Assembly (NCBI GenBank): GCA_942159475.1
Contig: OW804096.1
Span: 101,282,194-101,346,193, forward strand
Origin: Sthenelais limicola
Lineage: Eukaryota; Annelida; Polychaeta; Phyllodocida; Sigalionidae
Length of the DNA: 64,000 nucleotides
Reading direction: 5' to 3'
Both the position numbers and the translations under genes were made by a program. This document shows positions 3,968-60,870 of this stretch, piece after piece (position 1 is the stretch's first letter; every line of letters begins with the position of its first letter). Below the pieces are notes generated by a model. That model saw nothing but the letters and a program-made list of their open reading frames with translations, had not been told where the DNA came from and made no database searches.

Positions 3968-4035
3968 CAGTCCATGAACTCATGGCATCCTCTGTTTACC
4001 AATTTTGGTAGAGGATGCCATGAGTTCATGGACTG
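3968..4035. repeat. 26-bp perfect-stem hairpin
   Basis: Arm 3968-3993 is an exact reverse complement of 4010-4035. The 16-nt loop (3994-4009) can add five more pairs (accaa with ttggt). It lies about 330 nt upstream of a laminin exon. It could be a tiny palindromic transposon end or a small-RNA hairpin precursor; the sequence alone cannot separate these. Confidence 0.75.
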
Positions 4036-4369
4036 GTAAACTGTTCACACAGTGCTGAGGGGATTGGATGTGGGGGTGATTTCTGTCTGCTTATTCCCTC
4101 TAAGCTAAAATGATACTAGTTGCTCCGACAACTGCCCTCCTGGTGAAGTAGCTAAAGTGATAGACCATAGCTGATGGAGTAGAACTGTCCCGATAGGATC
4201 AAGAGATCCTGGTAAAACTGTTAAAGAGATGGCTGCGAACTTGTTATAATTTATCTTTTAACCTTAAAGAGGGAAGTAAATTATGGGCGCAGTCACGAAC
4301 CCCAAAAAGGGAAATTAAGAATTGTTGGGCTGCCACTAATTAGTTGTATCATACATTGTCTCTGTACAG

Positions 4370-4499
4370 GTAATCGTTGTGATGTGTGCTCTGATGGTTA
4401 TGCTGGAGATCCCGAGGGGCGGTACGGACCTCGTCGCCCGTGTGAGCGCTGTACCTGTAATGACAACATAGATCCAAATGCTGTTGGGAACTGCAACTC
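4370..4499 (+). CDS. LAMC1: Laminin gamma exon a: LE module with nidogen-binding loop
   Basis: Acceptor tctgtacag and donor gtaagt. The exon opens on the second base of a codon. It encodes the end of one LE module ([10 protein letters not shown]) and the start of the next, containing NIDPNAV (4465-4485), the exact motif by which the laminin gamma-1 chain binds nidogen. Confidence 0.92.
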
Positions 4500-10400: not shown

Positions 10401-13400
10401 TGTATCTGCAGCCACCTGACGTTCATTGCTCCAACATAGTATTACGGTCTTTGTGACCAAGTTCAAGAACTGACTTCATGTGTCATTTGACACAAACACA
10501 TTACCGATATCAACGGATACTTGTAGATTCTTGGAAATCAAATTAGTAAAAGACGTGAGTAGTCAATGCAAGTCAATGTGAGTCATAAAGACGTTTTCAT
10601 TTTCCAGTGTAAAGGATGCTGAAGCCCTCTTCAACCAAACTCATTCCCTATCTGAACGCGCTCTTGACCAGGCAACAAAAGCCTACAAGGACGCACTTGA
10701 GATTTACAGTGAGGCAAAGGAGCTCACTAAACCTGTAGTAGACGTGGACCAACTGCGTCAAGAGGCCAGCAGTATTAAGGAGGAGGTAGGACTTTATGGA
10801 ACATTAATCTTTGATCGTACTCAATTTTTCATATTGTAATCTTCAATGACTAAGCGTCTGTATAAGTTATCCTTAAATTTGACGAAATCAATTTGTCAAA
10901 ATCAACATGACCCTCATACTTAATCATCATAATGAATCTAAACCTCTTCTTCCCCGCCAACCCTATACTGTTACGATGGTAATATCAAGAGGTGCAATGG
11001 TAACGTTAAGATGCTCAGATCTTGTTCTCATCGTCAAACTGTCCTTGGCTAACCTTTTACTTGTCTCTTCTTTCCAATCGCCCCGCTACACTAGTCTAAA
11101 CAAATCCGGGAGGATGCTGACCGCCTGATCGAGCAGCACCAGAACCTAATGCATGATGTAGAGAACCAGCGCCAGGAGGCGGAGACAATGCTGGAGAACG
11201 GCGTCCGCCAGCAGCAGATTGCTGACGAGCTGCTCGCAGACGCCGATGTGGCCAAGAGCATCGCTCTGGATGCCGTCAACAAGGCCGAGACGACCCTCCG
11301 CGACGCCAACAACACGCTCAAGACCCTCAAGGAGTTCGATCAGAAGGTGCAGGAGAGCAAGGCTGAAGCGGCCAAGGCCATGGAGAAGATTCCAGTCATC
11401 GAGGCTGAGATCAAGGACGCCGAGGCCAAAACTAGAGACGCTGATTTGAATCTTGCTGGAGCTGATACAGACGCTAGCATGGCTCGTGATGTGGCTCAAG
11501 ATGCCAAAGAAACTGCGACTCGTGCTTCTGAAGTATGTTTCATTTACACTCCAGTGATGTTGGTACTGGCTATAATCGTTTTAGTGTCAATGATGTTAAT
11601 ATAATAGTACAATTTTCTCTAGTGACCTTTAAGATGCTTTGTTGTATTGATCTTTAAGTATCGGTTGCAACAATTGAAAGTTTAAACAAGTTGTTCTGCA
11701 AGTGCATTAATATTTTAATGTTACCATTATGCTTTTGGCACCGGAACGTTTATGGTTATGCCCATACTAGTGCCGTGTGGAATCAGAATTTTATGCAATA
11801 ACCGAGAAAGAACTATAGGTATTGCACAGTATTCCGCTGTACCATTTAATACCCTTCCTATCAAACTTTAATTGTTGATCTGATTCACTTGTAGGAAGCA
11901 GGAGATATCCGTGCCAAGGCTGATACCACCAAGGTTGAAGCTAATGAGTTGAGGACAACAGCTGAAGATGTTGCTACCGATGTCGGTGATGCTGAGCAGC
12001 GGCTGACAACATATGAAACCCAGGCTAATGATGATAAGATGAAGGCTAAAGATGTAAGGCTGAATTAATATCCCTCCATAAAAATACACTTTACACCCTT
12101 GTTTCAAAATAAGAATTGATACAATTGAAAGTATATAATATGATTATACGAATTATTAGGAAGTGAATCCTTCCTTATAGAAAAATTCTGCCAATATTCC
12201 CAAATAAAAGTGCTTTAACATTCAATGAGGAGAGGATAGCCTTTTAGCGACGCTTATCCTCTATTAAGATATTCAGCAATTGCTTGTTTATCTAGAGCTA
12301 AACCTATTTTATTATGACCCGTGTTCTGCCGGTAATAACCCAAAGGTAAAGATGTCTGTAAGCCATACCTGAGTCTGATGTCTCATATTTTAGGCTCTCT
12401 CCAATGCTGATCAAGCCAAGACAAAGGCTGATTCCTCTTCCAAGATGGTCACAGAAGCTCTTGACACCGTTGACTCAATCCTCATACAATTAGGTGAGCA
12501 AAAACTCTTGCCTACATTATTTATCTATTAGTGAAGTAATAATATAAGTTGCTTCTCGTTCCTATTTCTATCGCAGACTTGATGCAGTAGTATAAATTTT
12601 ATATTAGGTTGAACCCATTGAATTGGCAAACCAATAACCTTCGTGGTTGTAATATGGGCCCTGAATGAATAGCAGATTGAGATTTATAATAGCAGCCTCA
12701 GTAAAGTTCATCGATTTGATTGACGCTATTCACGAATGGTGTATTACTTTCAGACAATCTGCAAGCTATCGATATGGCCGAACTTGAAAAGTTGGAGAAG
12801 AGCATGATGGAAGCAGAACGTGAAATCAATGCTACCCAATTAGATGAGCGATACGACAGGTTAATCAAGGTAATACCATTATTTCCTTTTTAAAACCAAT
12901 TATGATATAAACAAATATCAATTTTGGACCATTTAAATTTTAATTTTAATTCACCTTACTGCTTATCAGGTAAGCCTCTCAAATTCCAAGATAATCACTG
13001 ATTAATTAATGACCTCTGAATCCCATGTGTCCCTCGTTGGCTGAGTGGCAAATTACAGACCCTGTGTTGTTTCAATGCGTAGAGCATATCAGGGACCTGT
13101 ACCAAACATTTCTACTTCTCAACAAGTTGCACAGTCTAGTCCTATTGTATATTCAATATGTGTCCAATAACACATTTCACACACCCCTCCCTAATGTAAT
13201 GTCCATTACCTCGATTAGCAGTTAAAGATCGACTCCCAACCCCCACTCCGTTCCACTCAATAAAATGGCATTGATTACACCCTTGAAAACCCCGTCAGCT
13301 TAATGTCTTGTATTGATATTCTTATTGTTTTTTTTTGTTTTTGCGACATCGTTTTATTCAATATTTAGACTGCCATCTGGGCTCCTACAATGCTAAACAT

Positions 13401-16400
13401 TTCAATACAAGTATGCATGAATAATAATAACCAAGATGTTTCAACATTATCTTACAATAACATGGATTGGAGCCTGTTTCGGCTGAGACGTTATCACATG
13501 ATATTTTCACAGCTAATTTAGGGACATCACTGATATAGAAAGGGGGAAGTCTATGCCCTGTTTACTTTTAACCTGTCGATGGCTTCTTGTATGTCATCGT
13601 ACATTCTTCTCCATAACTTTTTTGTGTCATTTGGTGTTTTCTTCAAGCTATGCGAATTAATTACGACTTTGGTTCTCATACGCAGCTCGTACATTGTTAA
13701 TAAGGGGTCAATTTTATTCTCCATGAATAATTTCTGGCGATGTATGAAAGCCTTAACCGTTAATACGATCCAGTTTATTATTCTGGAATTTAAATTGGAG
13801 ATTTCGTAGCCGAACATTATTCCCTTCTTATTGACCACTACACTGTTGCCCTGTCTATGGATGATTTTTTTGTTGGCACCATTGTTATTGAGGTATCCAC
13901 TATCGTAGATCCACTGAAGTATGAATTTCCATAAGGACAATGCGTTTTTGCATTCAATAAAAAAATGAACCACGTTATCCACCTTTTTACAATAGCTACA
14001 TATTGGGTCATTTCTCTGTTGGGCATTTTTTAACCATTCATTGCAGGTAATCGAGTTGTGTAAGATTCTGTACTGTAGTACGTGTAACCTTGTTTCCGGT
14101 GTTATCTTATAAGAGTTAGAAAAAGCAGTGTTCCAGTTCACCATTTCGAAATCATTTTCACTCATTGCAAGTAATTCCTGCCACCTGTCAAGTTTCTCCC
14201 TCTTGGGAACTCTTTTTAGAACAAGTTCTTGATGAATAGTGTTCGAAAAACAATCTAAAATATTAAAAGGTTTGCCTCGGATTTTTAGAATTACAGAGTT
14301 GTCTATTTGGGATGGTTCACAATTTTTCATACTCGATACCCACTCCTGAGGTAGGGCTTTTCGCAATTGTTTTCTTTGTTCAAATGGAGGGTAAAACTTG
14401 TAGTTCTCCATTATTTCATACATTGACATAAGATGGCCCTTTTCATTGAATAAATCACCTATGGCTGTAATGCCATTTTCTTTCCAAAGTTCCCAGTTGA
14501 GCATTTTCCCCTTATACTTCACCAGTCTATTCAGCCAGAGTCTCTCTTTCATGATTTGATTTATGTTGTCTGGTTTATCACTATAATAATACCTGTTCCA
14601 ATACTTGAAGATGTCGTGGTAGAACTTATTTAAGCTACATGAAGGTTTATATCTACACAGTAATATGTCTACTACATTTCTTTTATGGAAAGCCTCGAGG
14701 GCTTTGAACCAGTTTGTACGATAACCAAGTAATAATTTTTTAACCCACATGATTCTGTTAGTTTCATAGATATCATATATAACTCTTAAACCTAATCCAC
14801 CGTTTTCATGCTTTTGGGCCAAGAATTCTTGACTTATTTTTGGTTTTTTGTTTTTCCACACGAACTCCATCATTATTTTGTTAATCTCTTTTAGTAAAGG
14901 TTGTTCAAAGGATATACACGACATAGAGTGTTGGAGTATGGGTAGTAGAAATACATTACATATTAAAACACGACCCTTTATCGTGAGAAACCTGTTGTTC
15001 CATTCATTTATTGTGGATTTGATCTTACGTATTAAGTCTTCGCTATTTAGTTTGTACATTTTTGTTTCGTCACGCGGATACATCAAAGTTACGCCCAGTA
15101 CTTTCATTTTATCAGTCCAGTCAACACTTAACACTTCTCTGTTTGTTAACATGATATTACCGATTTGAAAACCCTTTGATTTAGAGGGATTTAATTTCAA
15201 TCCAGAGGCATTAGAGAACCTATCAATTATTCTGAAAGTGGATAACAAAGAAAATTCATCTTGCGAGAATATTGTAATGTCATCGGCGAACTGAGTCAGT
15301 TTCGCTTCATGTTCATTCAGCATAATACCTTTTGTTTTCTCATCTCTTCTAATTTGCTCTGCAAGTTTCTCTACGACTATGGTGAACATTAACGATGACA
15401 TAGGATCGCCTTGTTTCATGCCTTTACCAACGCTAAACCATTCTGAAGATGTTCCGTTATTACAGAAAGTGGCCTTAGAATCGTACAACAAGGTTTCTAC
15501 CCAAGATATAAAGTCTTGGTGAATATTATGGGCCTCTAAAGCTTTTCTTAAGAAGGTCCAGCCGATCGAATCGTAAGCTTTCACGAAATCAAGGGATGTG
15601 ACAAGGCCTTGGCCCTTAGAGGATTCTAAAAAGGATACAACGTCATCGATTTGTCTCACAGCCGTACTAATATTCCTACCTTTTACAAAGCCAAATTGTT
15701 CTTCCTTAATAATATTTGGTAAGAAAAATGAGAGTCTGTTTGACAGAGATTTAGAAATTATTTTATAATCAACGTTGAGTAACGTGATAGGTCTCCAATT
15801 TTTTATAAATGTTAAATCATTTTCTTTTTTTGGTATTACATTGATAATCCCTCGCTTTTGGTTCTCAGTCATTTGACCATCTATTAAACAATATTCGAAC
15901 ATTGACATAAACAGGTTTTTCAAGGTATACCAATAATACTGATAAAACTCGGCGGTATAACCGTCACACCCTGGGGATTTATTTTTTTTCATTGACTTGA
16001 TAACCTTCTCGATTTCCTCTTCAGTAAAGGCTCTACATAATAGGTTATTATCAGTTTCATCTAACTGAGTTGTGTGATCTTTCAACACAAATTCATCAGC
16101 AGCACTTTCGTCTAGGGGTACATATTTATATAAATTCTCATAGAAGGATTTACCTTCTTGCAAAATTTCGACTTGGTTTGTAGTTAGGTTACCATCAATA
16201 TTTAACATCGAGATCACTTTTTTCTCTGCTTTGTATTTTTCGAGTGCGCAGAAATATTTTGAGGGTTTTTCCCCTTCTACCACCCATCTCGCTTTAGACC
16301 TAACAAGGGCGCCTTCTGCTTTTCTTATTTCTGCTTCTCTAATTTCATGTATTAATGTATTTCTCTCTTCGACTTCGTTGATGTTTAATCTTTTTTTACT

Positions 16401-19400
16401 ATCTAGCTCTAAGAGTTTTGATTTTTGCTTTTCTAGGGTTTTCTTTCTAGCTCTTGCCCTCTGGGCGGATATTGTAATTGCTAGTTCCCTGACGTTCATC
16501 TTAAAGAACTCCCATCTTACTTTGGGATTTAGGGACGTTTCCATACACTCTTGGGATAACCTTTCTACTCCTTCAGAGAAGGATTCATCATGTAACAAAC
16601 GTGCGTTGAATTTCCAGTATCCCCTTCCCCTAAGTGAGCCCCCTATGTGGATATTGGCATGGATTTCTCTATGGTCAGAGTGGATATTGGTGACAGTGTT
16701 GCAATCAATCACATTATTAACTACATTATTCGATACAAGTATATAGTCTAGCCTGGATCTTTGCTCAAGTCGTGACCAGGAGAAGGGGGGAATACTCGGC
16801 GTTTTTACATCAATCACATCACATAGATCTCGTTTGTCAATATAATCTAACAAGGTTTTGCTGGGTACAGAATCTGTTTTATATGATATGTCAGCATTTA
16901 GGTCACCCATAACTAACAATTGATCATACTCTAACTCTTCTATACATTCTTCCAAATCTTCATATAGTTTGATTTGCTCTTTTGGCTTGTCTGCCGTTGG
17001 GGCATATATATTGAACACGCATATATTTCTGTTTTCAACACTTATAATTATATATTGCCATCGACCCATTGAGTCGGTACCTGAACAAATAACACTGTGC
17101 ATTAACGCTTTGCTAACTAGTATTAAGACACCCCTGGAAGCTGAAGTTCCATGTGAAAAAAATATATTTCCAGACCATTGGGAACACCATATCTTTTCTT
17201 TAGATTTGATCGAATGCGTCTCTTGGAGACCAATAATTGCTTCTGGATATTTAGAGAACTGATCAAGTATTATTTTCCTCTTTTCGACGTTATTTAGTCC
17301 ATTTATGTTAAGTGAAATAAATTTTGTTACTTTTTTTGAATTTGGAAAGCTGTCTGGATCCATTGTTCGTTCATAATTCACAAGTTATTTGTTAAACCTA
17401 TACATCGTGGTGACTTATGGAGCAGCGACTTCCATTTTCTCCTCTTCTGTGTCTTCTGTTTTGGTGTCATTGTCGATGTTCTGAGGCGGGGTATTTTGTT
17501 GGGCGTTGTGGGTTGTGTTGTCGTCGATCTGTTGGGCAATTGTGTTATCGTCGACCTGTTGGGCAGGATTATCAGTGTCAGCGGCGATCTGTTGGGCAGG
17601 ATTGTCTGTGTCGGCAGCGGTTATAGGACTGATTTCGCCTCTAACCTTCATCCACGTCTTTCCAAGTAGATTACCCTTGGCAGGCCAGGTGTTGGTTTGT
17701 AGTACGTCAGGATCATGTAGCCCTCGGCCAATGCCCCAAATTTTATCTTTTGGGGATGCTTCGCCTATTTGTCTGTTTCCAGTGAGAATGAGGTACTCTC
17801 GAATGAACTCGTGGTGTCTAACCTTGGCTCTCACAGCTGTGAGGATCACTTCTTCCCTGTGTTTGGCCCACGTATCATCTCTTTCAAAGATTTGTGACAT
17901 GAACCTTTTGCATGCCATGGGGTCTTTTGTTACTAGTGCCATGGTGACTTTCTCGGGGTCTGCTAAGATCTTTGCCTTACTGTAATATAAGTACTGTTCA
18001 ATGTTCTCGAATTGGTGTCTTTCCAGGGAGAAGGGGGCACGGAAATGGTTCGACAGAGGGTTATTGGCTGTGAAAAAAACCATGGCGTGCTCGTCTTGTC
18101 TTTTGGAGATCGATGATAGTAGTAGCTCTTGGGGCACAGCATTCAACTGGTCGTGCCTGTAGAATATACCATTTATTTTTATGCTTGTTCCGAAGATTTC
18201 CACCTTGTATCTCTCTTTATTCGCGGCTGCAGCTATTGTACGGATTTTAGCTTGTCTCTGTCGGACAATGGCTGGTGTGTCCCTCCTTATGGCCATTGTT
18301 TTACCATCTTTGCTAGTTTCGTTATACTGTTTGAGTCTGGACCTTACAAGCCATACCTTCATGGCGTGTTCCAAGGTTTCAAACTCGACTTTAATGGGTG
18401 CGTCTTGTTTCCCACCAACTCTGGATATGTTTCTGATTTTCGCGTCAGACACGACCAGGCAGTCTTCCATCACGTATCTGATTCTACCTGCTAATACTTC
18501 AGGGGGATCAGATTCCTCCGATCTGAGGCCCATGAAAAGAAGGTTCTTTTCTAGTTTCTGGGTTTCTCTTTCGATTAATTGTCTGTCTCTGATATTCTTA
18601 TTGTTCGCGAAGCGGACTATCATCTGACTTTTGACCAAGTGACATAGATACAAATATAGACATAACCTATTGCGTAGGTTTGGTGACCTAGTACATGCCT
18701 TTCTTTTCAAGCTATTTCTTTCTTGTTTGGTAAATGGCTCAGGAAAACCGATTGTAGTTGAATAGGGTGATTTAAATTTTTAAATTGTTTTTCTGAAAAG
18801 AGTTATTTCCAAAAGTGGTAAACCACCTTCGTAGGCTTTGTAGTAAGATCTTTATCTCACCCTGACTTGGGTCTTTTAGTAGGCTGACTGGCTAGTACTG
18901 TAGCCTGTCACCTTAGCTGCCTGATACCCTGACCTGATACTGCTTGACCCCTGACAGCTAAGGAATGTGAGGATGGGCTAATGGGGTTAATGCTTGATAT
19001 TTTATTGCCCCAGATAGTTCTCACCTCCTCCCAGTTACCCCACAGGAGTTAATGACCCCTCAGACCAGATGTCTGGGCTCTGCCTGCTTAGGTGTATGTC
19101 ATTACTTTCCTCTCAATCTTATTTCGAATCCAAGAAAAAATAATCCTGTGTGTTTCAAGCATTTAGCTTGATAATTCCCACTAAATGACACTGAAGCTGA
19201 TTCCATGTGTTGAGTGCTATTTGAATTGTGTACATACAACTCTATAAATGCATGGCATTTCATTGAATATTTTATCACCTATTAATCAGCCTTTGCATTT
19301 TAAATGATTTTCTTTAAAAGAAATAACGATTTACCTGTTTATGAAACATGTACCCGCTTTTGATCTTATAAACCAGTGAGTGAAATTAACTTGTTCCTCC

Positions 19401-26112: not shown

Positions 26113-27339
26113 CTATTTCTTAGAACCTCTTAGTAGAGTATGAGCTACATCTTTCGATGTCGAGATCGGTTTCTTATAGAAACGAGTGAATGTGCTTTCA
26201 CTTCTCCAGCAACCTCTTTTAAGAATATCTCCAATCGGAACATTCAGGTTATGCAATTTTGACACTGAGGCCAATCTCGTGCTGTGTGCCTTGAAGGCAT
26301 CTATGTCTACACCACTATCGTTAAGAATTTCCTTAACCCAACGTGCCAAAGAGCTACAACCAACTGGTTTAAAAGGGGGAACGAAACTAATAACAAATTG
26401 TCCCTCTGCTTTGCCCTCAGAGTTGATATCTCTCAACTCCTGGGTACGACGTAAGTATTCCTTAGTAACATGTACTAAACACACCCTTGGGTCCTCTGTA
26501 AAGGCCCGTGTTGTGAAAACCTTCAATGGTTTTCCTACCTTACAAGTTTTGAGCATCTGATCAATTAAAAAGATTACTTTAGAATCTTTAACAACAATGT
26601 TTTCTACTCTCAAAGCACGAACAGTCTGTAGTCTTTGGGAGAGAACAATCAGAAAAAGTACCACGAATTTTAAACTCAACTTTTTTAGAGTGAGGTCTCT
26701 CACTGGAGAGAGTTCCCTCAAATATGACAGAACCACATCTGTGTCCCATGTATCAATATATCTACATCTTGGCGGTCTAAGGTGGGCCACCCCGGTTAAA
26801 ATTCTCCCTACTACTCGGCTTGCACCAAACGTAGTGTTATCTTTAAACTTCATTACCGAAGATAAAGCGCAACGCGCAATGTTAATTGAACTATGAGAAT
26901 AACCTTGGTTATATAAACACGTCAGAAACTCAATGCCCCACTTCTCGTTATGATCAAGTGGTTCAATCTCTTTCAAGAAACAAAATGTCCTCCATTTCGT
27001 TAAGAAAACGTCATAAGTCTTTCTAGTTTCCTCCTTCCAGGAGTTAAGATATAATAATCTGGCTTTTGCCGAAAGTCCAAAAGTGTCAAGTCTCTCTAGC
27101 AACAAAGACCTATGAACAGGCCTGTGCTGCCCAGGCTGATGTCTTGTGTTGGAAACGTCGGAATGAGATTTCCCTTGTTCTTGGGAAACGTTATGTACCT
27201 TCCTCTGCACATGCTGAGAAGTTTTGCGTACCACGCCTGGCTTGGCCAGTTTGGGGCCACCACCAATGCTGTTGCCTTTTCTGTCACAATTCTTTGCAGG
27301 CACCTTGTGATGAGACTGAAAGGAGAAAAAATATAACAC
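26113..27339 (-). CDS. DIRS tyrosine recombinase
   Basis: About 408 codons, open throughout. After a basic leader it has an N-terminal core-binding region (SWKEETRKTYDVFLTKW) and a catalytic domain with the first Arg in VLSQRLQTVRAL, the HSTRLASVSK box (H-x-x-R), RGCWRSESTFTRFYKK supplying the Trp/His position and nucleophilic Tyr. It should integrate the circular DNA copy by strand exchange through a 3'-phosphotyrosine. Its start overlaps the end of the RT frame by about 240 nt, as usual in DIRS. No ATG opens the overlapping part, so it may be translated by frameshift, reinitiation or splicing. Confidence 0.92.
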   Translation of the reverse strand: MLYFFSFQSHHKVPAKNCDRKGNSIGGGPKLAKPGVVRKTSQHVQRKVHNVSQEQGKSHSDVSNTRHQPGQHRPVHRSLLLERLDTFGLSAKARLLYLNSWKEETRKTYDVFLTKWRTFCFLKEIEPLDHNEKWGIEFLTCLYNQGYSHSSINIARCALSSVMKFKDNTTFGASRVVGRILTGVAHLRPPRCRYIDTWDTDVVLSYLRELSPVRDLTLKKLSLKFVVLFLIVLSQRLQTVRALRVENIVVKDSKVIFLIDQMLKTCKVGKPLKVFTTRAFTEDPRVCLVHVTKEYLRRTQELRDINSEGKAEGQFVISFVPPFKPVGCSSLARWVKEILNDSGVDIDAFKAHSTRLASVSKLHNLNVPIGDILKRGCWRSESTFTRFYKKPISTSKDVAHTLLRGSKK

Positions 27340-29055
27340 AACTTGAATTCATTCCAGTTCAAAGTGAAGGCATCAACATGGAAAGACAATGGGTCTGGTT
27401 TCCAGCTAACAAATTTTTTCACTTTATAATTCAGATGAGAAGCAAATAAATCTATGTCAGGGGTTCCAAATTGTTTACAAATTTCCTCAAAAATTTCATT
27501 CGACAAACTCCATTCTGTATTGTCAGTAAACACTCTGCTCGCCTTGTCGGCTTGCACATTTCTCACCCCAGGAATATGGCTAGCTACCAACCAATTTCCC
27601 CTAGATTCTGCCCAAGTCCAAATTCTTTGAGCAATCGTATTGCATTTGTTCGATCTCGTGCCACCTAGTTTGTTTATGTAACAAACTGTCGTACTATTGT
27701 CTGAAAGAACTAAAATCTTTTCATTTGAGGTGTCCCTCATAAGACTATTCAGTCCATTTAGTACCGCTTGCATTTCTAGCACATTGATATGATGGCCTAA
27801 CCATTCTTGACTCCATCTAAACCCAGTCGTTAATTCACCTCGAACTGCTCCCCACCCTTGGAGGCTTGCGTCTGTGACTAACTTCATCGTAGGCCCTGCT
27901 GATCTGATTTTCCTCACAGCCCACTGAACTTTGTTGTACCACCACTCTAGTTCTACCCAGCCTTTTCGAGAAATGGACATTGACCCATCAAATCCTGACC
28001 TTCCCGCCGCTCTCAAAGCGAAAATCTTCTCTACTTCTAACTGTTTGTAGTGTGCTAGGGCATAATCGAAACCTTTTGTCAAGTCTACCATGACCCCAAT
28101 TGTTTGGGCAACTTTCCTGATCTTATGAGTATCAGACGTTCTTAATTCGTCAATAAGGCTTTTGAGTTTATCAATTTTGTCTTGAGTGGGTCTCACTGAC
28201 ATTTCTAACGAATCTAATTGATATCCCAGGAAAACTATTTTCTGAACTGGTGTTTTTTGAGATTTTTCATGGTTGATATTGAATCCTAACCTCGAAAGAA
28301 TTTCCTCTACTCTAGCAATACCCCGTTTGCAAGTCTCTGCATCTTTACCAAGGACCAAGCAGTCATCTATGTAGATGATACACTGGATTCCTTCTCGACG
28401 TAAAAACGCAAACACAGGTTTTAGAATTTTGGAAAAAATTCTGGGGGCTGGGGAAAGTCCGAAGGGCATAACATTAAACTGATAATATCTGCCCTTCCAT
28501 TGAAAAACAATGTATTTCTTGAACTTTTCCTTCAGTCCCACAGAATAATAGGCTTCTTTCAAGTCTAGAGAGGCAAGAAAATAACCCTCCTGTAGCAAGT
28601 CAATCGCTGTTTCTAAGTTGTCCATCTTAAAGTGTTCTTTACGAATGAATCTGTTCAGAATTGTGAGATCTGTAATTAATCTCCATTTCCCCCCCCGGCT
28701 TCGGCCGCAGAAAAACATTCGAGATAAACCTAGCTTGATTGGCCTGAACCTCATCTACTACTCCTTTGGAAATAAGTTTGTCTACTTCAATTTGTAACGC
28801 CGTCTCTTGTTCTAGATTCATGCGATATTCTCTAGGAATTGAAAACTGAACCGGGGTCTCGACAAAGTCCAGAGAAATACCTCTAACCTGTTCTAACACC
28901 CAGTCATCCTCGCAAATTTCTTCCCAAAAGGCTACGTTATTAGCAATATTCCCCGGGAGACAAGGTACATTACATAATTTGTGGGACTCCAGCACCGGTA
29001 AACAATTATCATCAATAATATTCGTCTTACCTTCAAACGAAGTTACTCTTTTGGT
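27096..29055 (-). pseudogene. DIRS reverse transcriptase / RNase H / methyltransferase-like, one frameshift
   Basis: The N-terminal part (about 28700-29055) carries LEQETALQIEVDKLISKGVV and FISNVFLRPKPGG, then the frame shifts at an 8-base homopolymer (28689-28696). The rest reads open to 27096: WRLITDLTILNRFI, YFLASLDLKEAYYSVGL, FNVMPFGLSPAPRIF and catalytic YIDD in IIYIDDCLVLG. RNase H follows (LVTDASLQGWGAV, HINVLEMQAVL, VLSDNSTTVCYIN, ADKASR). Last comes the DIRS adenine-methyltransferase-like module (DIDLFASHLN, VSWKPDPLSFHVDAF, FSPFSL, VVAPNWPSQAWY). Its 5' end overlaps the gag 3' end in another frame. The break may be a mutation or a homopolymer sequencing error. Confidence 0.9.
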
Positions 29056-50684: not shown

Positions 50685-53141
50685 ATGGACCATGCTGACT
50701 GGCAGAGGGTGATAAAAACAATACGGAATAGGACTTATGTTGCATACGTCCGACCAGTGCCAATAGATCTGCCACCAGTTAGGACAAATAGAGAAAGAGT
50801 TACTCTGGTGGACCTGGAAGATAGACTATCTATAGACTATAATTTTGGGGATCAGAGCAGTGGAATGGCAGAAGCCGAATTATTGGCAATGAATCCGGAA
50901 GCGGAACAAGAACAGGAGGAGGGTGCCCATGGAGGAGGCACGCCGCCCCCCGCGGCGGAACAGCAACCGGGAGGGGCAGGTGTTGGAGCACAGGTGGGTG
51001 AAGGACATCCAGTGCAAAATGAGCGGTTACAACCACCACAGTCTCCTGAGCAGGGTCTTGGACCACAGCCTCCTGAGCAAGGTCTTGGACCACAGCCTCC
51101 TGAGCAGGGTCTTGGACCACAGCCTCCTGAGCAAAATCTTGGACCACCGCCTCCTGAGCAGGGTCCTAGACAACAGGGACCAGGACAACAGGTCCCTGGA
51201 CAACAGGGACCAGAGCAACAGGTCCCTGGACAGCAGGGCCCAGGGCCACGGCTTCCTGGACCGCAGGGTCCCAGAGTACAGGGCCCAAGGCCACAAGGGC
51301 CGCCTCAACCAAGGCCGCAAGGACCGCCTCAACAAGACCCACAAAATCGCCAAGGGGAAGCGCAACAGCAACAAAACAACCAGGGTCAACCACCACCCCG
51401 GGTGCCCCCACCGCGACGGGATGTGTTTCCGCCGATAGCATTGCCACCACCGCTGCCTGTGAATGTACAAGGAAATGGAGAGGCAAGACAGGGTCAGCAG
51501 GAGGAACCGGAGGTACTGCAGAACCCCTTGTTGGCTGGAAATGGTGCGGCGTTCCCGAGGGGTCAGTTGGGATCGTCAGGGAGCTCCTCCAGAGGGAGTA
51601 TTGGTCAGCGAATGAATGCAGATGACAGTGTCCATTTCTGGAGGGATATGGACGATGCAGACCTCCGGAGAGGCGGAAGGAGATCTGTGGGCTCTTCAGA
51701 GGAAAGTCAGCCAGGTCCCTATCAAATGCAAAATATGAGGGCAGAGTTAGATTACGTTCGCCAAGTAGCTGAGCATATCAGACAAAGCATGTTGATAGAA
51801 AGGGACAGGGCTGACAATTACGAGCGTCGCCTCAGAGCTGCAGAAGATAGAGTTCGAGAGGAGATAGATGCACGGGAACAGAATGCTAGGGGCTATCGTC
51901 TGGACATAGATAGGCTGGATGCCATGCACAGGCAGGATATGGACGCTTATCATGCCACAGTAAGAGAGCTGAGGGGAGAGATTGATGACAGATCAGATGA
52001 CAGAAGGAGAGACCATCGATTGTTGGATCAGATGGTTAGACAGCGTCAGCCCATGCGGGGACAAAAACCTGCATCGGGATTCACGACGTTCGAGCAATCT
52101 TTCAGTCAAGAATTACCCCGGGAAGGAGATTGGAGAAGGCCACTGGAAAGACAATCAACTCCAGTGCAGGGGGAAAGGCAGGACCCACCCCAACAAAATC
52201 TGGAAGGGTCGAGGGAACTGAATGGATCGGCAGTGGGTCGACCAGTACAGACTCACAACCAGAGCCAACCCCTGATACAACAACAAACCATTAATCAACC
52301 CCGTTCAGCAGCTCCGCCCCAGCCACCACAGTATACACAGTCTCTGCCTGGAGAGAATGTGGAGCAAAGGAATACTCACCAGTACCATCAGCAAGAGGTG
52401 GAGCAGCAGCAGCAGCAGCCACCACAACAACAACACAGTGACCTGTATGGGGATCCATATGGGAGGATAGCTGATTGGTTTCGGCCTTCCCCCAGGGGCC
52501 GGGAGTATCGGCAGGAAAGACGGTTGCCTGAATATGAGCAGATGTATTATCCTGGGACAGATCATTATGGTGCGTTTGCACAGGGAATTTATGGTCAAAC
52601 TGACAACAGACAGGGGCCGTACAGCCAGGTTGGTGTTGCCCCACAGGTGGCGAGACAGCAAGTGGGAGCGGAACAACCAAGGACATCAACGCCTCCTAGA
52701 TACGCCTGGCCAGGCCAAATGGTTGATTCCTGTTGGCCAGCAGATGGTATATATAGAGGTGGTGCTAGTAGACAACCTCCGCATACCAGGCAAGATGATA
52801 AGATCTCAGTGCCGGAAAAGAATAAGTCAAGCAAGAAATCAAGCAAGAGATCAAGTAGGAAGTCAAAATCAACCCACTCCTCAGATGATACAGATGATTC
52901 CACCGATATAGAAACGGAGGATGAGGATGGGTTACTTCGGAGCGTTACTGCTGGGGATTGGAAGAAAAAGGGTCCACATGTACCCGCAGTAATAGCCAAG
53001 GCTATATTCATAGCGCCTGAGCCCTTCGATGAGCCAACGGCCAGGGTATCAGCTGAAAGGTTTTGTAGAAAATACGTGAATTATGTGACATCGTTGGGGG
53101 TTCCAAAGTCCATGTTGTTGAAGGCGTGGAGAAGTTCCTAA
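50685..53141 (+). CDS. Gypsy gag, N-terminal part, P/Q-rich
   Basis: It has 818 codons from ATG. An N-terminal segment of about 85 residues (YVAYVRPVPIDLPPVRTNRE) is followed by a low-complexity Pro/Gln/Gly region. There a 27-bp unit encoding PPEQGLGPQ is repeated about four to five times (51042-51170) and runs of GPGQQVPGQQ follow. Next come a charged coiled coil (about residues 350-455: VRQVAEHIRQSMLIERDRAD), a second Gln/Pro-rich stretch, and a Lys/Ser-rich patch (KKSSKRSSRKSKS). The end enters the capsid domain (RVSAERFCRKYVNYVTSLGV) before stopping. It is unusually long for Gypsy gag. The capsid domain continues in another frame. Confidence 0.75.
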   Translation: MDHADWQRVIKTIRNRTYVAYVRPVPIDLPPVRTNRERVTLVDLEDRLSIDYNFGDQSSGMAEAELLAMNPEAEQEQEEGAHGGGTPPPAAEQQPGGAGVGAQVGEGHPVQNERLQPPQSPEQGLGPQPPEQGLGPQPPEQGLGPQPPEQNLGPPPPEQGPRQQGPGQQVPGQQGPEQQVPGQQGPGPRLPGPQGPRVQGPRPQGPPQPRPQGPPQQDPQNRQGEAQQQQNNQGQPPPRVPPPRRDVFPPIALPPPLPVNVQGNGEARQGQQEEPEVLQNPLLAGNGAAFPRGQLGSSGSSSRGSIGQRMNADDSVHFWRDMDDADLRRGGRRSVGSSEESQPGPYQMQNMRAELDYVRQVAEHIRQSMLIERDRADNYERRLRAAEDRVREEIDAREQNARGYRLDIDRLDAMHRQDMDAYHATVRELRGEIDDRSDDRRRDHRLLDQMVRQRQPMRGQKPASGFTTFEQSFSQELPREGDWRRPLERQSTPVQGERQDPPQQNLEGSRELNGSAVGRPVQTHNQSQPLIQQQTINQPRSAAPPQPPQYTQSLPGENVEQRNTHQYHQQEVEQQQQQPPQQQHSDLYGDPYGRIADWFRPSPRGREYRQERRLPEYEQMYYPGTDHYGAFAQGIYGQTDNRQGPYSQVGVAPQVARQQVGAEQPRTSTPPRYAWPGQMVDSCWPADGIYRGGASRQPPHTRQDDKISVPEKNKSSKKSSKRSSRKSKSTHSSDDTDDSTDIETEDEDGLLRSVTAGDWKKKGPHVPAVIAKAIFIAPEPFDEPTARVSAERFCRKYVNYVTSLGVPKSMLLKAWRSS

Positions 53142-53971
53142 CCGGCGTGGCGTTAGTATGGTTTGAACAGTTCTTGGCAGAAAATCCTAAAGTCAGTTTT
53201 GAGACCTTTAAGCGCCTCTTCTGTGAGGAATTCAAGTCTCTTTCATACCATGAGAGGATGGTAGGATACGCCCACAGGAGGCAAGGAAAAGATGAAACTG
53301 TCAAAGAGTATAACAAAGATATGTTGGTATTACTATCTAGAGCAAAAGTGCCGGAGCATACTAAGGTCGATTTTTATATAAATAACCTAAAGCCAGAACT
53401 GTCACGTCGGGTTCTGTGTAAAGACCCTAAAACACTTAGGGAAGCTGTTCTATGTGCTATTGAAAAAGAGGTAGACGATCAGACAAGGCCAGGAATAAAG
53501 GCAGTCACTGAGATGAAGACTGACATAATAAGAGCTATTAACTCGGCCAACTATGGACGGCCCAACGTACCTCGCCAGCAACAACAGCAGCAGGGATTTG
53601 ATGGCGGCTACCAGTCCCAACAGTGGCAAGATGACGGCAGAGGTCGTCAGCGTCAGAGGGGAAATAACAGTCGTCGGAATTCTATGACAAGGACGTCCGG
53701 TGGAAATAGCGGTTCACAGAACAGAGATGGCCCAGCGAGATCACCAGGAGGGACCACATGTGTCAATTGCGGAGCAAGGTCGAGGTCTAGAGAAAATCAA
53801 GGTGGTTTTAAAAGAAGTGCTTCGCAGGAAAATAAAGGATACGGTGGTGGAAACACTTCAGGCCAATCACCTTCTGGTCGTGCACAAAATAGGCAATTTA
53901 AAATTCAACAGAGGGCGGTGACACCCTTCAGTGACAATAGTCATAACGATTGTCAAAATAATAATGGCTAA
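53126..53971 (+). CDS. Gypsy gag, capsid (Retrotrans_gag) and C-terminal part
   Basis: This is the Retrotrans_gag family core: FLTGVALVWFEQFLAENPKV, FETFKRLFCEEFKSLSYHER and a YNKDMLVLLSRA / FYINNLKPELSRRV helix set. It is in a -1 frame relative to the preceding gag part, with no obvious slippery heptamer, so an indel is more likely than programmed shifting. The C-terminus is Arg/Gly/Gln-rich and nucleic-acid-binding-like. Only half of a zinc knuckle is present (TTCVNCGARSRSREN; CX2C without the following His and Cys). It overlaps pol by 41 nt. Confidence 0.85.
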   Translation: MEKFLTGVALVWFEQFLAENPKVSFETFKRLFCEEFKSLSYHERMVGYAHRRQGKDETVKEYNKDMLVLLSRAKVPEHTKVDFYINNLKPELSRRVLCKDPKTLREAVLCAIEKEVDDQTRPGIKAVTEMKTDIIRAINSANYGRPNVPRQQQQQQGFDGGYQSQQWQDDGRGRQRQRGNNSRRNSMTRTSGGNSGSQNRDGPARSPGGTTCVNCGARSRSRENQGGFKRSASQENKGYGGGNTSGQSPSGRAQNRQFKIQQRAVTPFSDNSHNDCQNNNG

Positions 53972-56900
53972 CGATAAAAAAATTGAAAATCAGAAGGTGG
54001 GTCGCATCACCAGAGTGAATGGTGATGGCTCTATAATAGACCCCTTAGAAGAGCAGGTGTTGGATCATACGGAAAACTATTTTAACATAGAGGACGATAC
54101 GTTTGATATGGTGACTCTTTTTCAGGAGAAAGGGGAGCACGTGGATAGAATATTGGTGCCCATGGAAAAGGGATTCGTTAGGATCGGTGTGGGTGAGTTC
54201 ACAGATGTTCCTTTTCTCATTGATACTGGTGCCACTTGTACATGTATGAGCGAGGTAATGTATAAGGGTATTAGAGCACAAATTGGGGAAATGAAAATTC
54301 GGAAAATTCGGAAAAGGGTTTTTCTGGCTGATAATACAGCACAACAAGTAACTTATAAGGTATTAGCGGTTGTAGCATTGTATGGTCGGCGATTTTCCCA
54401 TTGGTTTGATGTGTTGCCAAAACTCTCATGCCCTATGATTATGGGAGTAGACTTCATGAGGAAGTATAGAGCCCAAATAAATTTTGGAATAGATAAACAA
54501 CGAACCTATGCTATACGGGCAGATAGAAACATATATCTACCGCCACAGACAGAGCATTTATTTACAAATTCTGTGACAGCACCAGTGGATTTGACCACCA
54601 CTGTGGGGGTAACGGATAATGTGCGCTTAGCAAACCCTACACCCTATATGGTCAAACGAGCTGTGGTTAAGCCAGGGGGTGAAAGAAATAGGGTGGCAGT
54701 CTGTCTGTATAACGCTAGTGATAGTTGGTATACAATAAAAAGAAATTCGGTCATGGCTCTATATTCTATAGAAGATGAAGGTGACTTTCTTCCATTAAAT
54801 GGGACGCATGGGAGGAACGATGATAATGCTTTAAATGTATTGACGGGGGAATCCAGAGATGGTGACTCCTTTGAGTACAGAAAATACAATATGGGAATCA
54901 ATTTGACAACAGTGCAGCGTGAACAGCTGTTGCATTTGTTGACAAAACATGAAGATGTCTTTGTGGGACCCAGTAATAAGATTGGATTGACTAATCTGTA
55001 TGAACATCGTATAGATTTGAAAAAGGAATATGTTCCTAAGGCAATGCACTCTTATCGCATGAATCCAAGGATGAAGGAGGAAATGCGAAAGATATTGCGG
55101 GAGCAAGTCGAACAGGGGGTGATAGAAAAGACGGACGACATAGTGGAGCAAACTTCTCCAGCGTTTTTGGTCCAGAAACCTTCTAAAGGAGGTGTTCAGG
55201 CTTTTAGAATGGTCGTAGATTTTCGTTGGATAAATTCGATGGTAAAATCGCAATCAAGGTCGTTTCCTAGTGCTGAGGAGACGATAGAGGCCGCAGGAGC
55301 ACTGGGGGGTAAGTTCTTTTCCACCTTAGATGCAATGAGCGGTTTTCATCAAATTCCAATTAGGAAAATGGATAGAATTAAGACAGCTTTTTCGACTTGT
55401 GATGGTATTTATGTTTACAAGACTATGCCCATGGGTTTGAAGACAGCCCCTAAGGCTTTCCATGCGGTGATAGAAAGAATTGTGGCAGGGATACCATCGG
55501 CACTCCCATATGTGGACGATATTCTGTTAGCAAGTGTCACTTGGGATGACCACCTACAGCAACTTTCACAGGTGTTTGGGGCCTTTCAGAAGGCAAATAT
55601 AAAATTTAAAAGACAGAAATGTTTTTTTGGTTTGGAGTCAGTACCATTTCTGGGATTTAGGGTTACTTCAGAGGGAATACAGCCAAACCCTGACAAGGTT
55701 GAGGCTATAGAAACATTTCCTGTCCCTAAGTCTGTGAGACAGGTGCAGGCTTTTAATGGACTTAGTAATTATTACAGGGCGTTCATTGCGGACTTCAGTA
55801 ATATTATGACACCATTATACAAAATTACAAAAAAAGGTATGAAATTCGACTGGGATTCAGACTGTCAGAAAGCTTTTGAAAAAATTAAGAAGATCATTTG
55901 TGAAGATGCGCTGCTGAGGTACCCAGACTATGGGAAGCCCTTTTCTGTAAATACGGATGCCAGTTTAACGGCCCTAGGGGCGGTAATATCTCAGCATGAT
56001 TCAGAGGGAAATCTGCGCCCGATAGCCTTTGCAGGCAGGTCGTTGACAGGGGCAGAGACGAGGTACAGCACTACAGACAGGGAGGTACTGGCGATTAGGT
56101 TTGCTTTAGCCAAGTTTAGACACTATTTGTTGGGAAATTCTTGTGTAGTGAATACTAACCACGCCCCTCTGTTGGCACTAAATGCTAAGAGGGATCTCTC
56201 AGGCAGAATGTGTAGGTCGTTGGAACAAATTCAGGAGTACGATTGTCAGATCAAATATGTGGCAGGAAAATTGAATATTGTGGCTGATGTTCTTTCTCGA
56301 AGGGACTACCCAATGACTATTGCACAGCAAAGAGAATATGAAATGATACCTCGAAGGCATCAGGTGACATTCAATCCAATCAGTATGGTGAAAACATTTG
56401 AGGAAGATCAGTTGTGTGAAAATTACCCCATATTGAAATATAAAAGATGTCCTATCCTAAAGGGCATAAAGAACGCAGTTCCATTCCCGGTAGAATCAGC
56501 TAGACTGAATAGTATCACAGGGGCAGTGTTTGATATCATACCTGGTGCGTTGAAGATGATACCGGCGAACAGGACCTACATGCTGATGCCAAAGGTAATA
56601 GCAGATCCTTGTGTGGGCCAGGTGTCAGTGGTAGAGGCGCCAGTCTTTCAGCAGATGTCGGTGGCAGCACCGGCAAAGCAAATATACTACACTATAGGTG
56701 CAGTGCAGACAAGGCACTCTACTAAACAGCAAACCACAAAATCGCTGTCTGAAAAGAAAGCGAGAGGAGAAAAGGTCAAGAAAGTAGCAAAGTTTAGCCC
56801 AGTACAAAGCAAGGCAAAGAAGGCAAATCCTACTCAATCTCCATCAAAGAGAACTAAATTAAAGAGGGCTGCGGTGACAGCAGCAGTACCAGATTTTGAA

Positions 56901-57305
56901 AGAGAATTTTTTGGAAACTTAGGTAAAGATTTCGGAATTCCAATGGATAGAGATAAATTCATGGATGATCAAAATGAAGATGTACATTGTGGGGAATTGA
57001 TGGATTATATTAAAAGTAATAAATTGCCGAGCACGGATGCCAGAGCTAGACAGGTGTTGCTTACAAATGACCAGTTTTTCCTTCACAGGGGCATGTTGTG
57101 TAGACTGCCGAATGGGGTCAAGCTCAGGGAGGCTGCACAGCTGTTCCAGATAGTGCTCCCTGAAAAACATGTACTGCCTGTGTTACGAATATTGCATGAT
57201 GGGCCTATGTCAGGGCATATGGGAACTGTGAAGTTATTGAAACTAATAAGGAACAGATTCTATTGGCAGAATATGACTAGAGACATAGTGGACTATGTTG
57301 CAACC
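53931..57305 (+). CDS. Gypsy pol: protease, RT, RNase H and start of integrase
   Basis: It reads +1 relative to gag, with the first ATG at 53964. The aspartic protease has DTGA in FLIDTGATCTCMSE and MIMGVDFMRKY. The RT has GVIEKTDDIVEQTSPAFLVQ, FRMVVDFRWIN, FFSTLDAMSGFHQIPI, MPMGLKTAPKAFH and YVDD in LPYVDDILLAS. RNase H has FSVNTDASLTALGAVIS, REVLAIRFALAKFRHYL and NIVADVLSRRD. A linker of about 230 residues follows, with a Lys-rich patch (KKVAKFSPVQSKAKKANP). The integrase zinc-finger half H...H is in RILHDGPMSGHMGTVKLL. The frame is then cut by a LINE at 57305/57306; the residues after it up to 57359 are LINE sequence. Confidence 0.92.
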
Positions 57306-59857
57306 ACAAGGAAAGAGAAAGATTGTATAAAAAGGCCAATTTCACAAAGAATATGTTAGATGTGAGGAATGCCAGGAATGCAAGGGACAGATGCAATAAG
57401 CTTATTAGAAGAGCTAAATCAGAACATTATAGAAACTTACTGTACACACATAGAAAGGACTCCAAAAAATTTTGGAGGGTCGTGGAGGATATTGAGAATA
57501 AAAATGAGGTACCTATTAACGGTCTAACAATTGATGGAGTAGAATGTGATGGTCGTGACTTAGTTCAAGGAGTAAATAAATTTTATTGTAACATAGGCAA
57601 AACTATAAATGATGAAATAGATTATGTACCAAGAGACGTAACAATCGAGGAACCATTGCTAGCCTGGGAAGAAATCGATATTAACCAAGACATGATGTTA
57701 GAACATATTAGGAATATTAATATTAATAAGAATTCAGGTTGCGATGAAGTAAATACCAGAGTGTATAAAGATGCATTTATGATTCTTATAAGACAATTCT
57801 TACATGTCATCAGAAACTCCTTTAGGGGAAATACATTCCCTAATGCATGGAAATACGCAAATATTAAGTTAATACCAAAAGTAAAAAATCCTGTTACTCC
57901 CTCGGATACGAGACCTATCTCCCTGTGCCATGTTGCAGGGAAGATAACAGAAAAGATCGTGGTAGAGGAGCTTATGTCCTACCTTCATAGAAACAATATC
58001 CTCTGTGATAGACAATATGGTTTCCAAAGCGGTCACTCCACAACGGAGGCACTATCTGAATTCCTGAATGACATTAACTTAGCCACTTATAATAATTATT
58101 TTACAATTGCATGTTTCATTGACTTTTCTAAGGCGTTTAACTCTGTAGACCATGGTATTTTGGCAGATAAACTGCTTGAATGTGGGTTAAGTGTGGCTGT
58201 TTGTAATTGGTTTAAATCATACCTAGAAGGTAGACAACAAAGAGTGAAAAATGGGGACTACTCGTCTGACTGGAATCACATAGACTATGGGGTACCACAA
58301 GGGTCTGTCCTTGGCCCGATACTCTACTTAATTTATGTTAATGATTTAAAGTACCTGAACTTAAATAGTAAATTTATTCAATATGCGGATGATACCGTTT
58401 TTTATTACAGTGGGGCTAACCTGGACGTATGTATGAATAACATGAATACAGATTTAATGAAATTTTACTCCTGGAGTAGAGGTAATAAGTTACTGGTGAA
58501 CATCAAAAAAACCAAATGTATGCTCTTAGGAACGAAAAGAAAAATAACGAATGTTAAGGTTGCGATAAAAATGGGTGATGAACCTATAGAACAGATAAAC
58601 AAATATGTGTACTTGGGACTAACTATTGACCCCTGTACTAACATGATACCCCAATTCAATAGCCTGATAAGCCAACTGTATAATAAAATGTTCGTCTTTA
58701 GAAAAATCAGGCCTAACTTAACAAAAGGAGCAGCACTGATGATTGCTAAGTCTAAATTGTTATCTATATTCGATTATAGTCTGTTTGCGCTTACGCCACT
58801 GAATGTAACGCAGTCCAGGAGATTACAGAAAATCCAAAATAGTATTCTAAGGATAGCGATAGATCGTAACTACGAAATGAGTAATAGAGAACTATGGTCC
58901 ACTGCCAAGGTTATGAATGTGGATAATAGACTAAGGTTTAATTTATGTAAGATTGCGCATAATGAGATATATGTAAAAGGGAGGGGTATACCCCCCCCCC
59001 CCGAAATACGAGACAAGCTGACGCCCCAATCCTAGCCACGTTTCTTCCTCGGAATATGAATGATGAAAGATGTATTACTGCGAAAAAAGCCAAACATTGG
59101 AATGAGCTACTACCTGATATTAGACTAATTAATGATCCTATTAAATTTAAAACACGTCTGAAATATCACTTATTGAACCTCCAGAATAATCAGGGAAATG
59201 GTATTAACTGATCGAAGACCCGCCCCCCCCCCCCCCCCGGCCTCCCTCCCCCTCCTATTTTATTGTTGTATGATGTATTGTTGGTCGTCATCGACTGATT
59301 ATTGTCGCATCTTGCCGCAATGTCGCCTATGTGTATAACCCTACAACTCAAACTTCCAATTGACTTTGTATATGTATATATTGTATACCTCATGTACACC
59401 AATGACCGCTTTAACTTTAACATAATGTCGTCACTATCATGCTAGACATGAAAAATTGTAACCGAATACAAACAAACATGTATATATTCTATTGCACAAT
59501 GCAAATGATCATATTTGTACTACTAGTATCACAACCATTTCGCTCACTACGGTACGAGTCCCTATTTATAGCAACAGCCAGGAACCGTAACTATCATCCA
59601 CATCTCATCTCATATCATCATTTGTCACATCCACATGAGTTAAAAATGATGAATCTAATTTAATAATTGAAGAATGTCTTATTAAATTAAATGGACAGAC
59701 CTAACTTATGTTTTCAACTTTAAGTAATGGAATGAATTGATTGGAATTACCCTACTATTATTTGTAACTTGCACAGACAAGCATGCTTATGAAAATCACT
59801 ATTTTGTGAGAGGTGTATTGTCATTTATCTGAATAAAAACGTTTCCAAAAAAAAAAA
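57306..59857 (+). mobile_element. 5'-truncated LINE inserted in the integrase gene
   Basis: The left junction is at acc|acaagg (57305/57306). The right end is an A-run (59847-59857) followed by pol sequence, which resumes in the original frame. Only 3-4 nt (acc/aacc) are shared at the two junctions, so the target duplication is very short or absent. The body is a partial ORF, a C-rich 3' UTR of about 640 nt including a long C-run at about 59222-59238, and the A-tail. It is in the same orientation as the host element. Confidence 0.88.
57308..59211 (+). pseudogene. LINE reverse transcriptase (CR1/Jockey-like), truncated and frameshifted
   Basis: The frame is open from the junction, just upstream of the RT domain (HYRNLLYTHRKDSKKFWRVV). 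RT motifs include DTRPISLCHVAGKITEKIVV, ACFIDFSKAFNSVDHGIL, YGVPQGSVLGPILYLIYVND and catalytic YADD in IQYADDTVFYYS. The frame shifts in a run of 12 C (58991-59002) and stops at 59035. The natural C-terminus (AKHWNELLPDIRLINDPIKF) continues in another frame to the stop at 59209-59211. The endonuclease is missing through 5' truncation. Confidence 0.9.
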
Positions 59858-60870
59858 CCTGCCACGAATGTTTGAAGACAAAGAAGTCGAAAAGGCCAAA
59901 TAAAGTACCTATGGCTATCAGAGAGCCAGCCCCGGCTCCAATGAGTTGTTTAATGATAGACTCAATGGGCCCATTTACTATATCGGCAAGGGGAAATAAG
60001 TTTGTCCAAGTAGTGACGGATATATATAGTAGGTACGTTTTTGCTTGGGCAACGACTTCAATAGATTCAGCCACACTAAAGAGAGAGTTTTTCGAGAAAA
60101 TTCTGTGTGTGGTAGGAGTGCCGACTAAGTTATTTTCGGATAACGGACCTAGCTTCTCTTCAAAAACATTTAGGGAGTTTTGCAGAGCCTTTGGCATCGA
60201 GCAAATATTCTCTAGTTATTACTCGCCCTGGGTACAAGGCGGGGTGGAGAGATTTAATCAAAGTATTGTCCAGTCCATAAAGACTTATGTTAGTAGGGGA
60301 CAGAAGGACTGGGACATTTACTTATCGGCGGTGGCATTTGCATTGAACATATCTGAGTCAGCAAGTGTTGGTGTAGCTCCTTATACATTAATATTTGGCA
60401 GGAATGCGGTCACGCCAGCAGAGGCCTCCATATTGGGCGTGGATAAGGATTACAAGCCAGTGGTGGCGCATCTGTTGGATATCGTGAGTAGGCAGGCCCA
60501 AATCATGGAGCAAGCTGAGGCAAACCTGGAGAAGTCGAAAATAAAGATGAAGGCCAGGTATGATCAAAATGCAAAGGAACACGATATAAGGCCTGGCGAC
60601 ATTGTTTATATGAAAATACATAGTCTTATGGTCAAAGGGACAAGTCATAAGTTTCAAGACTCTTATAGAGGCCCTTGCTTGGTACTGGACACTCCTACAA
60701 GGTTTACGGTAAAATTAAAAGATCTAAGTAAGGGCAAGGTAATACCGAAGCCAGTCAATGTGACACACGTTAAGAAATTGCGGACTGGCATAGGTAATAG
60801 ATTTCTACCAAGATTACTGGGAAAGTTTGAGGCCGACCCAGACTTGGTTAAGCTAAACCCCAAGAAATAG
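59858..60870 (+). CDS. Gypsy integrase: zinc-finger second half, catalytic core and C-terminal part
   Basis: The frame resumes after the LINE with CHEC, the CX2C half of the HHCC zinc finger. The rve catalytic core follows: LMIDSMGPF (first Asp), LFSDNGPSFSSKTFREFC (second Asp), YYSPWVQGGVERFNQSIVQS (Glu). A C-terminal chromo/SH3-like segment (DIRPGDIVYMKIHSL, DSYRGPCLVLDTPTRFTVKL) precedes the stop. It would insert the DNA copy into the genome. All three catalytic residues are present, but the domain is physically separated from its zinc-finger first half, so this copy cannot make a normal integrase. Confidence 0.92.

Follow-up and report, generated by a model that had tools for sequence, protein, structure and literature searches.

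A NADAR domain in the ORF1 protein of LINE retrotransposons from the annelid Sthenelais limicola

The first open reading frame (ORF1) of a long interspersed nuclear element (LINE) in the annelid Sthenelais limicola carries a NADAR domain. The element lies on the minus strand of a 64,000-nucleotide window (contig OW804096.1 of assembly GCA_942159475.1, positions 101,282,194 to 101,346,193), the window being the whole stretch of DNA that was analysed. In its ORF1 protein, NADAR follows an RNA recognition motif (RRM) and a C-terminal domain (CTD). This NADAR-bearing ORF1 design is conserved and abundant in the host genome, and the domain is under purifying selection in what is apparently a second LINE type. 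Coordinates of the features are given in Table 1.

The ORF1 reading frame is open from 17415 to 18710 and encodes 402 aa when counted from the ATG at 18623. The Pfam family PF08719 (NADAR) matches it with 92.1 bits (E 5.7e-26) against a membership cut-off of 35.1 bits and is the sole Pfam domain detected in the window ORF1. The match spans residues 216-360 of the 431-aa frame, or 187-331 of the 402-aa frame. Sequence comparison with solved structures gives matches of ORF1 to the NADAR 8bau (E 7.3e-13) and to YbiA 2b3w (E 0.0034). In an AlphaFold2 model, the NADAR part has a predicted local distance difference test score (pLDDT) of about 89-98 per 10-residue block. Elsewhere in the window, no frame reaches E<=1 with either the NADAR or the RRM/CTD profile. 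The first-pass annotation of this DNA had proposed a NADAR domain in a LINE ORF1, fused behind RRM-CTD and with its catalytic residues kept. These results support that proposal, and the three NADAR motifs it named are all present in the translated ORF1. The ORF1 tail is acidic and glutamine-rich with imperfect 11-codon repeats; no such tail occurs in the relatives L028, P0162, P0074, and P0055.

In ORF2, the Exo_endo_phos and RVT_1 matches exceed their Pfam cut-offs, and zf-RVT falls short of its own. The best match of this predicted endonuclease and reverse transcriptase among solved structures is human L1 ORF2p (314 bits over about 850 aa), with R2 at 92 bits. The A-rich tail and the target-site duplication are likewise L1-type features. 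Judged by the ORF2 match among solved structures, the window element is an L1/Tx1-like LINE, on the L1/Tx1 side.

The copy had been annotated as an intact LINE, a description that does not survive, since the target-site duplication places the 5' end within ORF1. A perfect 16-bp direct repeat brackets the insertion. Among 2000 second-order Markov shuffles, a shared 16-base word appeared in 2 and a longer one in none. The 3' repeat copy abuts the A-rich tail. The 5' copy sits inside the open ORF1 frame and ends 3 residues short of the point where homology to a full-length relative starts. This relative (L028+L029; C1, about 94.86 Mb), the nearest one in the host genome, has uninterrupted frames for ORF1 (489 codons) and ORF2 (1248 codons) as well as an A tail, and its ORF2 is 37.7% identical to the window ORF2 over 1232 aa. 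No target-site duplication was found around it, the longest shared word being 10 bases in the stretch compared. Residues 15-328 of the window ORF1 align to residues 156-471 of L028 with 33.75% identity. Thus, about 140 ORF1 residues and the whole 5' untranslated region (UTR) are missing from the window copy, and residues 1-11 of the 402-aa protein are flank and duplication. The RRM, CTD, NADAR, and ORF2 are uninterrupted; the ORF1 start is lost, and with its 5' end inside ORF1 the copy is not a full-length LINE with a complete ORF1 and 5' UTR.

Related proteins with the same layout are present in the sequence databases. A first search with the full-length protein returned nothing at E<=0.001 among 4421 candidates, which in our opinion is because of word sampling. 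With the NADAR part as query, 54 proteins were found, among them P0024, the one that was matched by the RRM/CTD profile as well. A seven-sequence profile gave 228 matches, and later counts rest on 120 of them, 119 of which are new. Among the matches listed, 117 of the 119 new proteins matched the RRM/CTD profile, including 56 of the 58 not used in building it. The RRM, CTD, and NADAR columns are filled in all 61 listed relatives of at least 430 aa, in which a median of 179 residues precede the RRM, compared with 26 in the window. The seven-sequence profile included the window and P0024 with their NADAR and CTD parts and so favours such architectures; the count of relatives is therefore no measure of architecture frequency among LINEs. 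When viral contigs were searched with P0024, 7 pattern matches appeared, none of them a relative.

The RRM and CTD were recognized through these relatives. No Pfam match was found for this part at E<=1, and the RRM/CTD half searched alone against the PDB set matched nothing, L1 ORF1p included. Built with the window left out, the relatives' RRM/CTD profile scores 23.9 bits against it (i-E 2.8e-7, searching 174 sequences). Human L1 ORF1p (2ykp, 2yko) is matched marginally by the profile of alignment A3, at E 0.014, chance-like coiled-coil matches starting at 0.016. The L1 match is collinear and extends from the coiled-coil end across the RRM to within the CTD. For the RRM/CTD region, AlphaFold2 yields a poor model. 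Of the features of a type II ORF1, the RRM and CTD are thus recognized by the relatives' profile and weakly by similarity to L1 ORF1p; the coiled coil is absent from the truncated window copy, and the relatives have a long N-terminus. Type II ORF1s occur in the L1, CR1, L2, and R1 clades, and their coiled coil-RRM-CTD arrangement (PMC4120745) apparently has its RRM-CTD core in common with the NADAR-bearing ORF1. Unlike in type II proteins, NADAR is an extra domain on the C-terminal side, and the text of PMC4120745 contains no mention of it.

The host assembly (1.13 Gb, 161 contigs) was searched with PF08719, and 150 places were scored out of 5561 first-look candidates. All 150 passed the NADAR cut-off and 148 are stop-free; the window's own NADAR (92 bits) scores below the lowest of the host matches listed. 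From these places, 20 regions were taken, mostly chosen for long frames. Each of the 20 contains a NADAR frame and, downstream on the same strand, an ORF2-like frame (E<=1e-5 to the window ORF2), which in L014 and L027 is only a fragment (297 and 211 codons). L028 entered the sample via a separate 162-codon NADAR frame. In the 19 other regions, NADAR lies in an ORF1 of 580 to 830 codons, and the RRM/CTD profile matches 18 of the 19 ORF1s, some weakly (12 bits), and not that of L011. Their ORF2s are 21-30% identical to the window ORF2 in the aligned part. The ORF2 of L009 is about equally near to R2 (58 bits) and L1 (50 bits) in the PDB set, and three such ORF2s run against Pfam include two with endonuclease and reverse transcriptase and one with reverse transcriptase alone. 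Judged from layout only, these 19 regions apparently represent a second, non-L1 LINE type on the CR1/L2/Jockey side. The standalone 162-codon NADAR frame (L028, minus strand, 3995-4480; also L030) lies in a dispersed repeat, about 700 bp of which are 97.7% identical between two places, and it groups with no ORF1-NADAR in the tree.

The catalytic residues of NADAR are largely retained across these proteins. Active-site positions were taken from section 12 of PMC11543638 and mapped onto the window via the 8bau alignment. In that numbering, the window NADAR retains E43, K50, K75, D86, W89, R93, E125, D130, and W133. In the alignment, the catalytic place of the last strand holds a Glu (E288) rather than Asp or His, and E209 and K216 stand as E43 and K50, in agreement with the YbiA family. 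E43, K50, K75, W89, and E125 are invariant in the 61 long relatives listed; W133 is kept in 60 and D130 in 56, and R93 is replaced by A in 59. Among 28 distinct NADAR frames of the host genome, E43, K75, W89, and W133 are each present in 28, E125 in 27, and D130 in 25. The K50 place is K in 14, R in 12, E in 1, and Q in 1; a K-to-R change at this place is reported to leave in vitro hydrolysis intact in the E. coli C7 NADAR (PMC11543638). In L020, a plus-strand frame from 6444, with 496 codons up to the locus end, has a NADAR with His at the E125 place, which is the residue reported for phage NADARs.

Selection was assessed by the ratio of nonsynonymous to synonymous divergence (dN/dS). From the 28 frames, 378 pairs were formed, of which 7 overlapping pairs, drawn from 8 frames in three groups, have a dS of 0.1-1.2. 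All belong to the second LINE type, and their NADAR dN/dS is 0.04-0.08 (median 0.055). By region, NADAR has a dN/dS of 0.02-0.08 in the 6 pairs with enough changes (two of these values rest on dS above 2), resembling the 0 to 0.04 of the RRM-CTD in the same pairs; the C-tail is higher (0.15-0.30). The pair L019/L024 has a NADAR dN/dS of 0.52 at a dS of 0.01, with too few changes, and L022/L006 is saturated. Open frames were chosen, so the sample favours intact copies. The first-pass annotation had allowed that the domain might occur only in this one copy and under no purifying selection. The database relatives, the host copies, and the dN/dS of the second LINE type, in which the selection test was made, contradict this.

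NADAR domains have been described in other retrotransposons. A 2025 Genome Biology paper on Ectocarpus reports a NADAR of the YbiA family in ORF1 of several Crassostrea gigas Tx1 LINE families (PMC12477816). The first-pass annotation knew of no described LINE of this design; the view that none had been described is rejected. By published description, the oyster elements too are LINEs from the L1/Tx1 side whose ORF1 carries NADAR; the passage on them is silent on other LINE types, selection, active-site counts, and the RRM-CTD context. The Pol protein of an Ectocarpus Gypsy element also carries NADAR (PMC12477816), yet that retrotransposon is a long terminal repeat element with the domain in Pol and not in an RNA-binding ORF1. 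The DarT1-associated and YbiA-family NADAR hydrolases (PMC11543638, PMC11125620) have the same domain with an active site of the E43/K50/E125 type. In contrast to them, the window NADAR is unpaired with an ADP-ribosyltransferase and fused to a LINE ORF1, and its R79 and Y84 are changed. For NADAR in LINEs, PMC12477816 was the only paper among the matches listed from open-licence PubMed Central, and the word NADAR is absent from passages of two papers on mollusc transposons. Beyond the 2025 report, the present analysis adds the apparent second LINE type with NADAR, the abundance of the design within a single genome, and data on selection and active-site residues.

NADAR occurs in both LINE types of this genome, in the Tx1 LINEs of oyster, and in brown-algal Gypsy elements, a distribution that suggests repeated gain or exchange. 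In a 70-row tree, a branch with 91/91 support splits 30 ORF1-NADARs from 40 standalone ones. In a 90-row tree, whose bootstrap had not settled, a clade (98/92) unites the window with L028 and 29 database ORF1s, apart from 17 second-type host frames. The approximately unbiased (AU) test did not reject a topology that keeps all 48 ORF1-NADARs together and separate from the 40 standalone ones (p 0.793). Both a single gain with ORF1 exchange and two gains remain as accounts of NADAR entry into LINEs.

Table 1. Features of the NADAR-bearing LINE copy (window coordinates)
Feature	Position	Strand	Basis
3' copy of 16-bp target-site duplication	13314..13329	-	identical to 18590-18605
A-rich tail; AATAAA just upstream at 13353-13358	13330..13343	-	sequence
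5'-truncated LINE copy, ORF1 without N-terminal part	13330..18589	-	target-site duplication, tail, relative L028
ORF2, 1276 aa from GTG, predicted endonuclease and reverse transcriptase, weak zf-RVT	13551..17381	-	RVT_1 1.1e-42, Exo_endo_phos 5.9e-15, zf-RVT 22.1 bits (cut-off 27.5)
C-terminal acidic ORF1 tail, imperfect repeat and stop codon	17415..17630	-	sequence; pLDDT about 40
NADAR domain	17631..18065	-	Pfam and PDB sequence match; E209, K216, K239, W252, E288, W296 occupy published active-site positions
RRM and CTD of ORF1 (residues 20-175)	18099..18566	-	profile of relatives built without window, 23.9 bits; L028 ORF1 33.75% over 320 aa
5' copy of target-site duplication; frame upstream including Met at 18623 is flank	18590..18605	-	target-site duplication and L028 alignment

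Two other elements were noted in the window. On the minus strand, 26113-28754 contains a reverse transcriptase frame that also matches Dam methylase, next to a frame with a weak, below cut-off match to Phage_integrase (tyrosine recombinase; E 0.0037). This looks like a DIRS/Ngaro-type element. On the plus strand, 53126-60870 contains a Ty3/Gypsy-type capsid, protease, reverse transcriptase-RNaseH, and integrase. An RVT_1 frame (57323-59035) sits between its H2C2 and rve frames, as if a second element lay inside the Ty3/Gypsy-type one.

How NADAR might serve a LINE can be framed from its position in ORF1. The reading we favour, with confidence a little short of even, is that the ORF1 protein brings a guanine-ADP-ribose hydrolase to LINE RNA or cDNA. 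In a protein laid out as coiled coil (lost in the window copy)-RRM-CTD-NADAR, the RRM/CTD would keep NADAR on the ribonucleoprotein by coating the RNA of its own element. There, NADAR would hydrolyse ADP-ribose off guanine bases in LINE RNA or new cDNA, undoing marks made by host ADP-ribosyltransferases or by those of other conflicts, so that the template would stay readable. We infer the NADAR activity, its cellular substrate, the existence of a host mark, and the benefit to the LINE. In published assays, the NADARs tested strip guanosine-base ADP-ribose from RNA (PMC11833690), and NADARs act on guanine-ADP-ribose in DNA (PMC11543638).

Several observations weigh against hydrolysis of guanine-ADP-ribose by the ORF1 protein. 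The dN/dS evidence is confined to the second LINE type, and the window's own family lies outside it. Two ADP-ribose contacts are changed in the window NADAR, R79 to S and Y84 to R, and the R79 place is R in 42 of the 61 long relatives listed but in 0 of the 28 host frames. YbiA-type NADARs are reported to be active in vitro, and several failed to rescue cells from DarT1 (PMC11125620); guanine-ADP-ribose may therefore not be the physiological target. The altered contacts also favour a distinctly unlikely alternative, that NADAR is a nucleic-acid-binding or structural accessory for which catalysis is not needed. ORF1 accessory domains (CTD, CCHC, esterase) are thought to aid RNA binding (PMC4120745). 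However, in relatives with 24-30% identity to the window, the invariant columns include the catalytic positions, and this argues against a merely structural role. Chance capture of a functionless domain by one copy would fit the window copy, which is 5'-truncated and probably dead on arrival. It deserves almost no credence given the host abundance, the relatives, the intact kin L028+L029, and the low dN/dS in the second LINE type, and for the family as a whole it is refuted.

Other alternatives keep the catalysis and change the substrate. NADAR could process another ADP-ribose- or NAD-linked RNA group, such as an RNA-processing or cap-related intermediate, serving LINE RNA maturation and not counter-defence. 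Processing of an RNA intermediate is proposed in the Ectocarpus paper (PMC12477816), and an RNA-binding module adjoins NADAR in 61/61 of the long relatives aligned among the matches listed, but LINEs are not known to have an RNA substrate of this kind, and we regard this role as unlikely. It is quite improbable that NADAR disposes of small, diffusible signals based on ADP-ribose, or of reactive intermediates of the riboflavin type, with the ORF1 fusion merely securing expression. Soluble ADP-ribose derivatives are proposed substrates of viral NADARs (PMC9503650), whereas the constant joining of NADAR to an RNA-binding ORF1 suggests that it acts on the ribonucleoprotein. Among the targets first proposed for this element, guanine-type ADP-ribosylation (DarT1/ScARP/CARP-1-like) fits better, and PARP-type marks at the target nick are the least likely. 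PARP proteins are reported to touch LINE-1 biology, but the NADARs tested failed to act on ADP-ribose at the phosphate ends of RNA and 5'-phosphate DNA (PMC11833690), which weakens the target-nick version. Removal of protein-linked ADP-ribose by NADAR was not found in passages of the cited literature either. An eraser acting on PARP-type ADP-ribose at the nick is accordingly very unlikely.

To our knowledge, nobody has tested the function of NADAR in any retrotransposon. The role of NADARs in animals is described as likewise untested (PMC11125620). It is conceivable, though doubtful, that the NADAR-bearing ORF1 is a counter-defence module common to at least two LINE types. This would imply that the hosts use guanine ADP-ribosylation against the RNA or cDNA of retrotransposons, a counterpart in animals of the DarT-type defence against phages. 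If the counter-defence reading were true, CARP-1, a clam enzyme that marks guanine in DNA (PMC11543638), would by analogy represent a candidate writer class. A LINE family that keeps NADAR under selection is a system for asking whether nucleic-acid ADP-ribosylation acts against mobile elements.
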